The notes under the pieces were generated by a model. The model saw nothing but the letters and a program-made list of their open reading frames with translations, was not told where the DNA came from and did not search any database. Below are positions 39,212-45,188 of a DNA stretch of 64,000 nt, piece by piece. Numbering within the stretch: position 1 is the stretch's first letter; each line of letters begins with the position of its first letter. The DNA comes from Bradyrhizobium sp. in8p8 (GTDB lineage Bacteria; Pseudomonadota; Alphaproteobacteria; Rhizobiales; Xanthobacteraceae), in assembly GCF_000426845.1 (NCBI RefSeq), contig NZ_AUGD01000001.1, positions 830,001-894,000 of the forward strand, in the 5' to 3' direction. A program made the position numbers and the translations under genes.

Positions 39212-39871
39212 TCAGGCACTCTTTCGTTGCGCGGCAGCGAGGCCGCAGAGGTTGGCACGGGCGACGGCATCCAGACGCGGGCCGTCCTGGCGAACGACCG
39301 AGGCCATGCCGATCCGATCACGCAGGGCATCGAGCGTTTGCCGACGAATGTCGATGGTCGCCGCCATGGTCCATGCGTTCTCCACCAGAGCCGGCAGGCC
39401 AAGCGGCGTCACGACGAACCCGGCTTCGTGAAAGCGCGGCAACCACCAGGTTTCCATGATCGCGCTGACCTGCGCGATCCCCTGATTGAGGCAGAACTCC
39501 TGCACCGCCGCCATCAGTTGCGCGTTGAGTGCGCCGTCGCGGCGATCACGAACGACGAAGTAGCGCGACCATTCCCAAATCAGCGGATCGGCGGGGCACC
39601 CGCGCATCGACGCCAGATGCGGGAACACCTCGCTCATCATCGACGGCTTGGTCGTCGGGTAGAGCCGGTGACCGCCGACGACGCGGCGCCCTTCCAGCGC
39701 CAGCAGATAGACGGTGTCCTCGTCGTCATAGGAATCGATCTCGCGGCCATCCGGCCTGCGCAGAGTCTCCCAGCGACGCTCCTCGACGAAGATGTCGTGA
39801 CGCAGCCGGAAATGCTGCTCGATCACGTCTTCGTAAAGGTGGCGGTTGATCGCGGAAATTGCGTGAATCAT
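39212..39871 (-). CDS. bjaI: Acyl/aryl-homoserine-lactone synthase, BjaI/BraI/RpaI type
   Basis: 219 aa LuxI-family enzyme. Conserved residues: Arg24, Phe28 and Trp34 in RLRHDIFVEERRWE, Glu44/Asp46 and Asp49, Arg69 in VVGGHRLYPT. It resembles the rhizobial group that uses acyl- or aryl-CoA (isovaleryl, cinnamoyl, p-coumaroyl) instead of acyl-ACP; which acyl group cannot be told here. Start at MIHAISAIN (39871); an ATG four codons upstream is possible. A lux-box palindrome lies 57-77 bases upstream and the luxR-type gene precedes it on the same strand. Confidence 0.88.
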   Translation of the reverse strand: MIHAISAINRHLYEDVIEQHFRLRHDIFVEERRWETLRRPDGREIDSYDDEDTVYLLALEGRRVVGGHRLYPTTKPSMMSEVFPHLASMRGCPADPLIWEWSRYFVVRDRRDGALNAQLMAAVQEFCLNQGIAQVSAIMETWWLPRFHEAGFVVTPLGLPALVENAWTMAATIDIRRQTLDALRDRIGMASVVRQDGPRLDAVARANLCGLAAAQRKSA

Positions 39872-39927
39872 GAAAGCCCCCATTGATCCTCAACGGAGAC
39901 AGGGTCTGCGAAAAGGCGCAGGTCCGG

Positions 39928-39953: not shown

Positions 39954-40685
39954 TTAGGGATTGATGATCTTGTTCCGAATCGCCAGCGCCACCGCATGCG
40001 TACGGTTGACGGCACCGAGCTTGCGCGCAGCACTAGCAAGATGCTCTTCGGCTGTGCGCTGCGTGATATGCAGGATCTCGCCGATTTCCCAGGCTGACTT
40101 CCCCTGCGAGGCCCAGGCGATCACCTCGCGCTCGCGTGGGGTGAGGCGCGCCGGCGAATGCGGCACCGGCTGGAGCAGACGGCGAATGTGGTCGAAGCCA
40201 TACATCGCCATCAGGTGCAGCGCTGGCTTGCTGCGGGGATTGAGGTCGAGGTGGACGCCGCCGAGCGACACTGCGGCCTCATAGCCGGTGAGCCCGTGGA
40301 TTGGCACGATGAAGCCGCGCGACATGCGAAACTCGCTGGCGCGATTCATCACCTCGGCCGCGTACGGCTCGAGTTCGGCATCATACGGCGCTTCCGACCA
40401 TTCGAACGGGTTGATCGATTGCCGGCACAGCCGCACCACCGGATCGAAGCGGTCGTAATTGTTCTGGGTGTAGAGGCTGAACCATCCAGCCGGCCAGCGC
40501 TTGGCGAGCACCATTTGTGCAAACTGCTGGTCAGGGTTTGGCAATCCCGTCACGATGATGGTTTCGAAGCCGAAGCGACCGAACGCTGTTTCGAGCGCAT
40601 TCATGGCGTCAGGTATCTTGCGATAGGTCTCCAGGCCTTCGATGAAGTCGAGCGCCTCCCGGCCATAATCCACGACGGCAGACAT
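39954..40685 (-). CDS. bjaR: LuxR-family quorum-sensing regulator, BjaR type
   Basis: 243 aa. N-terminal autoinducer-binding domain (about 15-165) with FETIIVTGLPN, WPAGWFSLYTQNNYDRFDPV (Trp, Tyr and Asp of the ligand pocket) and GFIVPIHGL; C-terminal GerE HTH (about 180-240) with LTPREREVIAWASQGKSAWE and RTAEEHLASAARKLG. Start at MSAVVDYG (40685). Pairs with the synthase just downstream. Confidence 0.9.
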   Translation of the reverse strand: MSAVVDYGREALDFIEGLETYRKIPDAMNALETAFGRFGFETIIVTGLPNPDQQFAQMVLAKRWPAGWFSLYTQNNYDRFDPVVRLCRQSINPFEWSEAPYDAELEPYAAEVMNRASEFRMSRGFIVPIHGLTGYEAAVSLGGVHLDLNPRSKPALHLMAMYGFDHIRRLLQPVPHSPARLTPREREVIAWASQGKSAWEIGEILHITQRTAEEHLASAARKLGAVNRTHAVALAIRNKIINP

Positions 40686-40812
40686 CAGTGCGTTTCCTGA
40701 CCCTCGCTGTCCGCTATAGCACGTATGTGGCAGCTGCCTCAATTCGCTGCACCCGTAGTTTGCCGGTGTTCCTCTGCTCCGAAAGTTTAATCTACTTGTG
40801 GAAGAAGCGACG

Positions 40813-41715: not shown

Positions 41716-43413
41716 ATGACTGAAGGCATCACGAAATCTGCAACCGGCATCGAAGGCTTCGACGATCTCACACTTGGAGGCCTTCCCACCGGACGGCCAA
41801 CTCTGGTCTGCGGTTCGGCCGGCTGCGGCAAGACATTGTTCGCGTCGACATTCCTCTTCAACGGCGCGCGGCTCCACGACGAGCCTGGGGTCTTCGTAAC
41901 CTTCGAGGAGCGCCCCGTCGACATCGTGGCCAACGTTGACTCGCTTGGCTTTGATCTACAGGGACTGATCGATCAGTCGCGGATTCACATCGAGCACATC
42001 GAAATCGATCCAGCGGAAGTCGCGGAGATCGGCGACTATGATCTCGAGGCCCTTTTCCTGCGGCTTGAATTCGCCGTCGACCAGATCGGCGCCAAGCGCA
42101 TCGTGCTCGACACGATCGAAAGCCTGTTCTCCGCATTTTCCAACCCAGCGATCCTGCGTGCCGAGATCCGCCGCCTGTTCGACTGGCTCAAGCAGAAGGG
42201 CCTGACCGCGGTCATCACCGGCGAGCGCGGCGACGGCAGCCTGACACGTCAGGGCCTGGAGGAATATGTGTCCGACTGCGTGATCCTGCTCGATCACCGT
42301 GTCGACAACCAGATCTCGACGCGCCGCCTGCGCATCGTCAAATATCGCGGGACCGCCCACGGCACCAACGAATATCCGTTCCTGATCGACGAGGACGGTT
42401 TCAGCGTGCTGCCGGTTTCCTCGCTCGGCCTCGGCCACAAGGTATTCGACGATCGCATCTCGACCGGCGTGCCTGACCTCGACGCCATGCTGACCGGCGG
42501 CGGCTTCTATCGCGGCAGCAGCATCCTGCTCACCGGCGTCGCCGGCTCGGGCAAGAGCTCGCTGGCCTGCATGATGGCCAACGCTGCCTGCGAACGTGGC
42601 GAGCGCGCACTCTATTTGTCGTTCGAGGAGTCCGAGGCTCAGACCGTTCGCAACATGAAGTCGATCGGCACCGACCTCGGCAAATGGCTGAAGGACGGGC
42701 AGTTGCGTTACATCGCGACACGCCCGACGTTCTATTCTCTCGAGATGCATCTCGCGATCATGTTGCGCGAGATCGGCAGGTTCAAGCCGCAGCTCGTCGT
42801 GCTCGATCCGATCTCCGCATTTACCGGGTCGGCTGACATCAGCGAGGTTCAGACGATGCTTTTGCGCATCGTCGACTACCTCAAATCCAATGGCGTCACG
42901 GCCGTCTTCACCCATCTTGCCAACGTCCAGCAGGCGGAAACCGATGCCGGCCTGTCGTCACTGATGGACGGATGGATCCTGTTGCTAAACCGCGAGGCGA
43001 ACGGCGAGTTCAACAGAGAGCTCTATCTGCTGAAGGCGCGAGGCATCGCCCATTCCAACCAGGTTCGCGAGTTCGTGATGTCGAGCAGCGGCATTCACCT
43101 GCTGGAGCCCTACCTCGGCGAAGGCGGCGCATTGACCGGTTCGGCCCGCCGAAACGAGGAAGCGCGGGCCCGGCGGACAGAAGCGACGAGGCGGTCCGAG
43201 GTCGCGCGCCTGCAGGACCAGGTGACGCAGCGGCGGCGGCGTGCCCTCGCGCAGATCGAGGCCCTCAAGGCCGATATTGATGCCGACGAGGCTGAACTCA
43301 ACCGCCTCGTTTCGGCCGAGACGCATTACCTTCAGCAGAGCCGGGACGACGCCGCAGCACTTGCGCGGGGACGGGGAATGGAAGCCCCCTCCGGCAAGAC
43401 AAGACAGGACTGA
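41716..43413 (+). CDS. kaiC: KaiC clock ATPase/autokinase
   Basis: 565 aa, two RecA-like domains. CI: Walker A GSAGCGKT (33-40), catalytic Glu64/Glu65; CII: Walker A GVAGSGKS (274-281), Glu304/Glu305. The stretch ETDAGLSSLMDGWILL aligns with the cyanobacterial phosphorylation loop, putting Ser414-Ser415 at the Ser431-Thr432 sites and Thr409 at Thr426. After VREFVMSSSGIHLLEPY a charged coiled coil (about 480-550) replaces the KaiA-binding tail, so it is longer than the 519-residue cyanobacterial form. Head of a kaiC-kaiB-kinase operon without kaiA, as in R. palustris. Confidence 0.93.
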   Translation: MTEGITKSATGIEGFDDLTLGGLPTGRPTLVCGSAGCGKTLFASTFLFNGARLHDEPGVFVTFEERPVDIVANVDSLGFDLQGLIDQSRIHIEHIEIDPAEVAEIGDYDLEALFLRLEFAVDQIGAKRIVLDTIESLFSAFSNPAILRAEIRRLFDWLKQKGLTAVITGERGDGSLTRQGLEEYVSDCVILLDHRVDNQISTRRLRIVKYRGTAHGTNEYPFLIDEDGFSVLPVSSLGLGHKVFDDRISTGVPDLDAMLTGGGFYRGSSILLTGVAGSGKSSLACMMANAACERGERALYLSFEESEAQTVRNMKSIGTDLGKWLKDGQLRYIATRPTFYSLEMHLAIMLREIGRFKPQLVVLDPISAFTGSADISEVQTMLLRIVDYLKSNGVTAVFTHLANVQQAETDAGLSSLMDGWILLLNREANGEFNRELYLLKARGIAHSNQVREFVMSSSGIHLLEPYLGEGGALTGSARRNEEARARRTEATRRSEVARLQDQVTQRRRRALAQIEALKADIDADEAELNRLVSAETHYLQQSRDDAAALARGRGMEAPSGKTRQD

Positions 43414-43416
43414 ACC

Positions 43417-43704
43417 ATGTCCCAAGCAAGCAACGAGCCCGTGAAGCTCGTCCTCTACGTCGCCGGCGAGACACCCAAATCGCTCGCCGCGATCCGCAAT
43501 CTCGAAAAGATCTGCTCCGAACATCTGGCAGGCAAGTACAAGGTCGAGGTGGTCGATCTCAAGAAGCAGCCGCAGCTGGCGCGCGAGCACGGCATCGTCG
43601 CCATCCCGACCCTGGTGAAGGAGCTTCCGGTCCCCATTCGCAAGATCATCGGGGACCTTTCGGACACCCAGAAGGTTCTAGTTCATCTGTCGGTTGAGGG
43701 ATGA
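43417..43704 (+). CDS. kaiB: KaiB clock protein
   Basis: 95 aa thioredoxin-like protein: [60 protein letters not shown]. Full KaiB length. In cyanobacteria KaiB changes fold to bind phosphorylated KaiC. Starts 3 bases after kaiC ends and overlaps the kinase start by 4 bases. Confidence 0.95.
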
Positions 43705-45188
43705 TGACGGTGGTGTCGCTCGTATCCGCGTTGACCCGGGATGAGCTCGAAGCTCGGCTTTATGAAGCCGAGGAGACGCTCCGGGCCATCCGCGAGGGCG
43801 AGATCGATGCCGTGGTCATCAAGGGCGGAGCCACCGAACAGGTCTTCACGCTCGAAGGCGGCAGCCAGTCCTACCGCACCTTCATGGAGGCGATGGACAT
43901 CGGCGCCGCGGCCTTCGACGCCGAGGGCCAGCTGCTCTATGCCAACCAGGCGCTGTGCAAATTGCTGGACCGGCCGGCCGGCGCATTGTCGGGGCAGGCG
44001 CTGCTGGACATCCTCGATGCCGTCAATCAGACCACGTTCCGCCGCCTGCTGACACAGGCGTTGAAGGAACGCCAATCCGCCGAAATCCACGTTCGCGTGG
44101 GTGACAGCGAGCGCAGCTTTCTCCTCACGGGAGCCCCGATCGATTTCGGCATCGTGAGCGGGGTCGCGATTACCTTCACAGACATCAGCGAACGGGAGCA
44201 GATCGCCGCCGCCAAGGAATCGGAGCGGCTGGCGCGGTCCGTGCTCGCCTCGGCCAACGAGGCCGTCATCGTTTGCGACCGCTCCGGCAGGGTCACTCAC
44301 ATCAATGCTGCCGCCGAGCGGATCTGCGCCGAGGCTCCGATCGGAAAGCCGTTCGAGGAGGCGATCGAGCTGACCTTCGCCGATGCGTCCGAGCTGATGT
44401 CAGGCGCCGATATCGTCGCGATGGCGACCAGCGGCACGCCGGTTCAGGGACTCGAAGCCGCCGTGAAGACATCGGCGATCGACGTCACGGACGTCATGAT
44501 CAGCGCAGCGCCGCTCATCGTATCCGGCGACCGGACACAGGGCTGCGTGGTCACGCTGATCAACCTGTCGCAGCGCAAGGCCGCCGAGCGCCGCCAGGCT
44601 CTTCTGATGGGCGAGCTCGACCACCGCGTCAAGAACACGCTTGCCATGGTGCTGGCGATCTCGGCCCGCACCGCAGCTCACGAACGTACGATCGAGGACT
44701 TCCAGAAATCCTTTTCCGGCCGCATCCAGGCCTTGGCGGCCACCCACACGCTGCTGTCCAACGCGTCCTGGGAGAACCTGCAGATCAAGGATGTGCTTCG
44801 CGTCGAGCTTGCGCCCTATGCAACGCTATCCAGCGGACGCATCACCATGGAAGGACTGGACATTTCCGTGGATTCCAAGACGGCCGTCTCCCTTGGGCTC
44901 GTCTTCCACGAGCTGACGACCAACGCGGTGAAATACGGCGCGCTTTCGACCCGATCCGGCAAGCTGTCGGTTCGGCGCCTTGGCCTGCTCGAGGACGGCG
45001 CCCTGCAGATCGAATGGGAAGAACGCGATGGCCCCCTGGTGACGCCGCCGACGACCTCAGGCTTCGGACAGACCTTGATCTCGCGCAGCCTGGGTAGCGG
45101 TCCCAACGGCGGCACGAAGCTCGAATACCGTCCGAGCGGCGTGGTTTGCCAGATCGTGATTCCGAAATACGGCCACTTCCTTTCCTGA
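43701..45188 (+). CDS. PAS-containing HWE-family histidine kinase of the kai operon
   Basis: 495 aa soluble kinase. An N-terminal short helix, then two PAS domains (about 60-165 and 175-290), then the HWE-type dimerisation helix with His308 in [14 protein letters not shown], and a HATPase with [14 protein letters not shown] and a [12 protein letters not shown] lid. HWE kinases often feed the PhyR/NepR/EcfG general stress response. Co-translated with kaiB, it is the likely output or input of the KaiBC timer; no response regulator is adjacent. Confidence 0.88.

Follow-up and report, generated by a model that had tools for sequence, protein, structure and literature searches.

Residues 13-66 of a histidine kinase encoded directly behind kaiC and kaiB in Bradyrhizobium sp. 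in8p8 behave, judging from the sequences compared, as a Kai-specific module that occurs in bacteria as well as archaea, which is the new finding of this work. In the genomes searched, the distribution of the module was restricted to Kai genes; it is followed by bodies of varied kinds, was found in one fusion with KaiB, and was missing in one case jointly with Kai genes. We consider it a good candidate for the connection, so far missing, of the timer with the cell. The operon probably encodes a KaiBC timer in which the module serves as the docking link from the KaiB or KaiBC state to an output body; the docking, its partner, its direction and the regulator are what we infer here.

The DNA analyzed, referred to as the window, comprises 64,000 nucleotides (C1:830001-894000 of the 7.59-Mb genome). 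On its forward strand, kaiC (41716..43413) encodes a protein of 565 amino acids with two RecA/KaiC ATPase domains (two stretches matching Pfam PF06745, 346.8 bits; NCBIfam NF006799, 745 bits), kaiB (43417..43704) a protein of 95 amino acids (PF07689, 95.3 bits), and the third gene (43701..45188) a PAS-PAS-HWE histidine kinase of 495 amino acids with two PAS_4 stretches, for which an AF2 model was inspected. The gap between kaiC and kaiB is 3 nt, and kaiB and the kinase gene overlap by 4 nt (ATGA), in agreement with the initial annotation that the three genes overlap or abut. Homology likewise supports its view of the operon as a timer without KaiA to which a kinase is coupled, and operons of this kind are already known from Rhodopseudomonas palustris (PMC4794148). 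A figure legend in that report gives the order kaiC-kaiB-PAS histidine kinase, and transcription start sites, a longer KaiC C terminus and a single proposed promoter are described. By its sequence, the window operon is thus a member of the known KaiA-less bacterial timer type, and the operon itself is ordinary, because the same arrangement of genes has been reported in R. palustris.

KaiC retains the features named in the initial annotation. P-loops start at residues 33 and 274, and catalytic glutamate pairs were identified at residues 64-65 (TFEE) and 304-305 (SFEE), so that both ATPase sites are kept. The phosphorylation-site stretch TDAGLSS (42940..42960, + strand; T409 to S415), located in the sequence and by alignment to 8dba and 8db3, contains the annotated Thr409, Ser414 and Ser415, the two serines aligning with the adjacent serines of Rhodobacter sphaeroides KaiC (S413/S414 in PMC10076222). 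The long coiled-coil end is likewise supported by homology: the tail, covering about residues 473-557 with bounds set by eye (43132..43386, + strand), aligns with that of R. sphaeroides KaiC as far as residue 556. The latter protein is the best PDB match (8dba, E 1.6e-273), whereas the closest named relatives among the best 80 of 546 confirmed KaiC relatives are from Bradyrhizobium (90-91% identity). Two ATPase domains, adjacent serines, a coil tail and kaiB were thus all found, as for a KaiBC hourglass timer of the KaiC2 type. The R. sphaeroides timer (8DBA, 8FWI, 8FWJ) resembles the window system in its KaiB and in a KaiC that aligns over residues 4-556, and a PAS histidine kinase has been reported near its kaiBC genes (PMC10931921). 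That timer and its coil mechanism are published (PMC10076222), in a structural study whose main text contains the term "histidine kinase" 0 times.

The initial annotation also noted quorum-sensing genes as neighbors. These are genuine: a luxR-type regulator (39954..40742, - strand; Pfam Autoind_bind and GerE) and a luxI-type acyl-HSL synthase (39212..39883, - strand; Autoind_synth) precede the operon, and both are neighbors shared with the Bradyrhizobium loci. However, they are not general neighbors at the KaiC loci inspected. Among the loci of the best 80 of 546 KaiC relatives, inspected with flanks of up to 8 kb, luxI matches were present solely at 3 of 80, all from Bradyrhizobium (L017-L019), and luxR matches were strong at the same three loci and weak at two others (L062 and L063, E 2e-5 to 3e-5). 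Quorum-sensing coupling as a general feature of KaiC loci was therefore ruled out.

The module, which goes unmentioned in the initial annotation, occupies about residues 13-66 of the kinase (43737..43895, + strand, for residues 13-65), with a core at residues 29-63 and the motif AIRxGEVDALVV..QVxTLxGA..YRxxxExM. A profile of 35 segments, all taken from Kai-linked proteins (A1), matched it with an E value of 1.2e-25 and gave no second match among the best 16 of 72 candidates scored in the window genome; the second-best match in this genome to the first 75 residues of the kinase had an E value of 1.23 (all 10 candidates scored). Pfam holds no model of the module, the best being LysR_substrate in 9 of the 35 members at E 0.0069 or worse, which was dismissed as chance likeness. 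Neither did a scan of the window kinase reveal a model in NCBIfam, and the best match in PDB sequences reached E 0.019 across 17 positions. In the AF2 model, a helix (residues 13-31), two strands (37-42 and 45-50) and a second helix (55-66) precede the first PAS domain (residues 64-165; 43890..44195, + strand; PAS_4 64-167), and a model of the full kinase gave nearly the same elements. The PAS domain is predicted with pLDDT blocks mostly above 80; the hairpin has low confidence (blocks of 51-58). A model of this kind would be expected from an element that folds upon binding, and equally from a poor prediction. A structure search with the module and first PAS domain was no help in understanding the hairpin, as the 50 matches listed were mostly PAS or LOV domains.

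A description of the module was not found in the largely open-access main texts searched by motif strings and topics, which is weak evidence of absence. The accessible portions of the R. palustris operon report contain no mention of an N-terminal module (PMC4794148). The 2011 Ramlibacter genome paper describes, for the kaiB-bearing group outside cyanobacteria, that kaiC or kaiB is immediately followed by the gene of a histidine kinase or a GGDEF/EAL protein; in the text available, the N-terminal domain that is named, RtaNt, belongs to the kaiB-less group, and for one hybrid kinase a figure legend refers to an N-terminal region without naming it (PMC3164672). An analogy can be drawn with cyanobacterial SasA, an output histidine kinase that binds KaiC and turns an N-terminal element toward the Kai proteins, but this element is a KaiB-like domain (PMC5520375), whereas the window kinase has no KaiB match in Pfam. 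An N-terminal KaiB-like domain of the SasA type, not encountered in the window kinase, is present in one archaeal protein (L246, described below).

The distribution of the module was determined in four partly overlapping surveys of 397, 397, 296 and 246 genomes, in which the best 16-27 candidates per genome were scored and a match was called full-length when it covered at least 45 of the 55 profile positions. These surveys include the seed genomes G000, G412 and G426, and at least two more (G1078 and G109) had also contributed segments to the profile. The analysis revealed 64 distinct full-length matches among the candidates scored, all in Kai clusters, and 61 of them came immediately after kaiB, in the same orientation and with profile ends 18-299 nt apart. 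Among the best 16-27 candidates per genome, the Pseudomonadota set (397 genomes) gave 12 matches, 11 of which were full-length and directly downstream of kaiB (11/11); the order of the window organism (397 genomes) gave 26 matches (24 full-length, 24/24 downstream), these two sets having four module genomes in common (G000, G281, G137 and G221); the phylum of the Bacteroidales locus L047 (296 genomes) gave 22 (19 full-length, 19/19 downstream); and the phylum of the Methanoperedens locus L073 (246 genomes) gave 15 (14 full-length, 11/14 downstream). One of the 11 archaeal cases (L208) has a broken kaiC and carries the module in a short open frame. The other three archaeal modules also reside in Kai clusters, two of them on genes divergent beside kaiC (L212 and L213) and one as a second tandem copy. 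Seven further matches were partial, each covering at most 36 of 55 positions: one lies beside a Kai remnant (L108) and one in the KaiB fusion (L215), and the five without Kai genes within roughly 3 kb were taken as chance.

Similar results were obtained when starting from the Kai genes. Among the loci of the best 80 of 546 KaiC relatives, the module was present at 68 of the 69 that contain kaiB, the sole exception being L076; its gene there follows kaiC and between one and three copies of kaiB. It was found at 0 of 11 loci without kaiB, four of which end close to the kaiC match (L033 after 1 nt, L060 after 136, L078 after 8 and L083 after 556). Across the 47 genomes in which 47 of these 80 loci reside, 43 matches in 42 proteins of 41 genomes were detected, and 42 of 42 are next to kaiB (all candidates were scored in 46 genomes, and the best 141 of 238 in G436); the remaining six genomes, which gave no match, belong to five kaiB-less loci and to L076.

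Not every kaiB is accompanied by the module. KaiB matches occurred in 33 of the 397 Pseudomonadota genomes, 30 of them above the family cutoff. KaiC was visible in 17 of 20 regions of this set with a kaiB above the cutoff but no module (matches below the cutoff in G254, G113:C54, G392 and G352 were left out of these regions). In 16 of the 17, kaiB comes first and the KaiC match ends by query residue 478, and these proteins therefore lack the coil tail. The remaining one (L170) has a tailed KaiC, a diverged KaiB after kaiC and a downstream PAS-GGDEF-like protein in which, as judged by eye, there is no module. At the 11 Pseudomonadota loci with the module, kaiC precedes kaiB and the KaiC matches reach residues 528-565. 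The window genome itself has a second kaiB-kaiC pair (C14), which is coil-less and without the module. The coil is not required, however, because at two loci (L197 and L198) the module is kept although KaiC has no coil.

This distribution could by itself result from shared ancestry of the third gene, since any orthologous gene has a family-specific N terminus; indeed, every gene family has a private one. The module might accordingly have no Kai-specific role and be a conserved cap at the N terminus of a single ancestral PAS protein, which traveled with kaiBC and had its C-terminal body swapped later, a reading in line with the nearly fixed gene order and with a first PAS domain that aligns throughout. 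We nevertheless regard it as improbable, and the pattern of conservation speaks against it. Between the clade of the window (22 sequences, KaiC at least 70% identical) and 36 others, which include some alphaproteobacteria, identity was 49% in the helix and 42% in the core, but 20% in the first PAS domain, so that conservation of the module is roughly double that of the domain that follows. None of the 58 sequences in alignment A4 departs from A29, I30 or D36. The two divergent archaeal copies beside kaiC (L212 and L213) also argue against a passively traveling cap, as do the differing bodies and the locus L179 described below.

The bodies were tallied with Pfam in 76 of 78 module proteins plus that of the window, leaving out L054 (at a contig end) and L180 (a near copy of the window protein). 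The set made up of the window kinase and 29 proteins that resemble its kinase half (A2) consists of HWE kinases in 30 of 30 cases. The 47 other module proteins (A3) contain HisKA (28), HATPase_c (29), receiver (20), GGDEF (4), EAL (4), HisKA_2 (1) and HisKA_3 (1) domains, and beyond the window-like kinases a single, weak HWE match was detected among them. Furthermore, eleven module proteins of 232-241 amino acids, from loci titled Bacteroidetes, Bacteroidales, Balneolaceae and Lentimicrobium, are too short for a kinase; in two of these short proteins (L045 and L047) the main Pfam match is PAS.

A PAS match (PF00989) was present in 76 of the 77 module proteins scanned, that of the window included, which could fit a kinase that serves as an input device, sensing redox or light with its PAS domains and acting on KaiBC through the module as the contact. 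In R. sphaeroides, the kinase of the operon has been suggested to transduce a redox signal to KaiBC (PMC5520375, PMC10931921). Such an input role is possible but appears rather unlikely to us: phosphotransfer and GGDEF-EAL bodies vary behind the conserved module, which fits an output better, and we favor output over input because the part that varies consists of enzymatic bodies unrelated to one another. To our knowledge, no phosphotransfer to KaiC has been described.

Two loci can be read as natural experiments on the module. In an archaeal genome (G934), a single ORF of 640 amino acids (L246, 7682-9604) encodes KaiB (PF07689, E 2e-23), a decayed module that retains model positions 20-55, two PAS domains, HisKA and HATPase_c. 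No kaiC was seen in the 7.6 kb before or the 9.3 kb after this fusion, and the genome also carries a normal kaiC-kaiB-kaiB-module cluster (L249). Of the two Kai proteins, KaiB would be the more probable partner, both because the occurrence of the module follows kaiB rather than kaiC and because of this fusion. At L179 (genome G108), an ORF of 78 residues fuses the start of kaiC to the end of kaiB, and the genome survey for KaiB reported no match in G108. In the downstream PAS/GAF/HD protein of 1,038 amino acids, the leading helix is kept, the module core is missing and the first PAS domain resumes in frame, whereas the core is present in all three proteins of the same family at other loci (L174, L176 and L177). 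The core has thus gone along with kaiC and most of kaiB while the PAS domain and the remainder were kept, which is not expected of a cap without Kai-specific function. This joint absence is a single case, and the 23 genomes of the genus gave, besides L179, partial domain-level matches only.

The differences at 4-fold synonymous sites within Bradyrhizobium were fewer in the module (1/25, 5/26 and 5/26) than in the first PAS domain (23/48, 15/50 and 20/49) and the rest of the gene (60/187, 61/186 and 63/185), and some constraint at the DNA or RNA level may thus act on these codons. That the conservation of the module as a whole reflects a nucleic acid signal, such as translational coupling with kaiB, is nonetheless very improbable. 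Among the 58 sequences of A4, every synonymous codon of the invariant residues is in use (GCC/GCG/GCA/GCT for A29, ATC/ATT/ATA for I30), modules occur in divergent genes (L212 and L213), and the decayed copy of L246 lies in frame within a KaiB fusion.

The HWE dimerization/phosphoacceptor domain of the window kinase (PF07536, HWE_HK, residues 305-386, 88.3 bits; 44613..44858, + strand) is a trait of the kinases of the PhyR pathway. HWE kinases number 12 in the window genome, and the link to the general stress response raised in the initial annotation is hypothetical for this one. Linkage of general stress response HWE kinase genes to phyR-nepR is common but not obligatory, and none was found for this gene in the genome: the NepR/PhyR locus, with the sole NepR match at C1:495024, is at C1:495 kb and the kinase at C1:873.7 kb, about 379 kb apart. 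No cognate response regulator was seen to recur directly after the kinase at the loci of the window's clade. Receiver genes are present near some of the other Kai loci.

Taken together, the preferred reading is that of a KaiB-KaiC hourglass timer with its own output protein. KaiC would autophosphorylate and KaiB would bind it in one phase, as for the R. sphaeroides homologue. The N-terminal adaptor of the kinase (residues 13-66), in which a helix leads into a predicted beta hairpin, may then dock on KaiB or KaiB-KaiC, and this docking would be relayed through the first PAS domain to the body that follows. Here, this body is an HWE kinase, which would alter phosphotransfer to an unlinked response regulator. 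We consider it an evenly balanced question whether the module is, more broadly, an undescribed Kai-docking domain wherever, in bacteria and archaea, a kaiC of mostly the coiled-coil type clusters with kaiB, and the general wiring of KaiA-less timers to interchangeable outputs, namely, HWE, HisKA and hybrid kinases, c-di-GMP enzymes and PAS relays.

According to a survey from 2017, the output pathway of possible clocks in archaea and noncyanobacterial bacteria must be unlike that of Synechococcus, an alternative that is not named in the text available (PMC5520375). A module that tracks kaiB and precedes interchangeable bodies makes this question of the output pathway testable, and provides a tag by which Kai outputs can be recognized in further genomes from sequence.

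Across the module, the Kai-linked N-terminal segment of the kinase (codons at window positions 43737-43901), the Bradyrhizobium comparison revealed few synonymous differences at 4-fold sites with respect to PAS1 and the remainder of the kinase.

The number of kaiB copies varied among the 80 KaiC loci, which are the best of 546 confirmed KaiC relatives. Tandem kaiB pairs were located between kaiC and the module gene in 38 of these 80 loci (e.g., L047, L073, and L094), and none were seen in the clade of the window (L017-L042). At another locus, L175 of genome G349, the cluster consists of kaiC, kaiB, and a module gene with GGDEF-EAL domains. Its KaiC is shortened to 267 aa (L175:6488-7291), combining the first half of CI with the second half of CII, and retains the adjacent serines and the tail.

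The window's own genome contains a second pair (L009; G000:C14:3037-4724), in the order kaiB then kaiC. This KaiC has no coil and carries S-T at the phosphorylation site; two GerE-type regulators, one of them with PAS domains, are encoded nearby. Further KaiC-like ATPases are found at L010 (G000:C15, ~126-127 kb) and L011 (G000:C5, ~312-314 kb), each followed by a HisKA-HATPase-receiver hybrid kinase, and the N termini of these kinases look alike by appearance. Judged from gene context, both loci may resemble the kaiB-less group described in the Ramlibacter paper (PMC3164672).

In the archaeal set, genome G934 encodes a KaiB-PAS-PAS-HisKA fusion (L246:7682-9604), the plan of which is like that of SasA; it occurs outside cyanobacteria.
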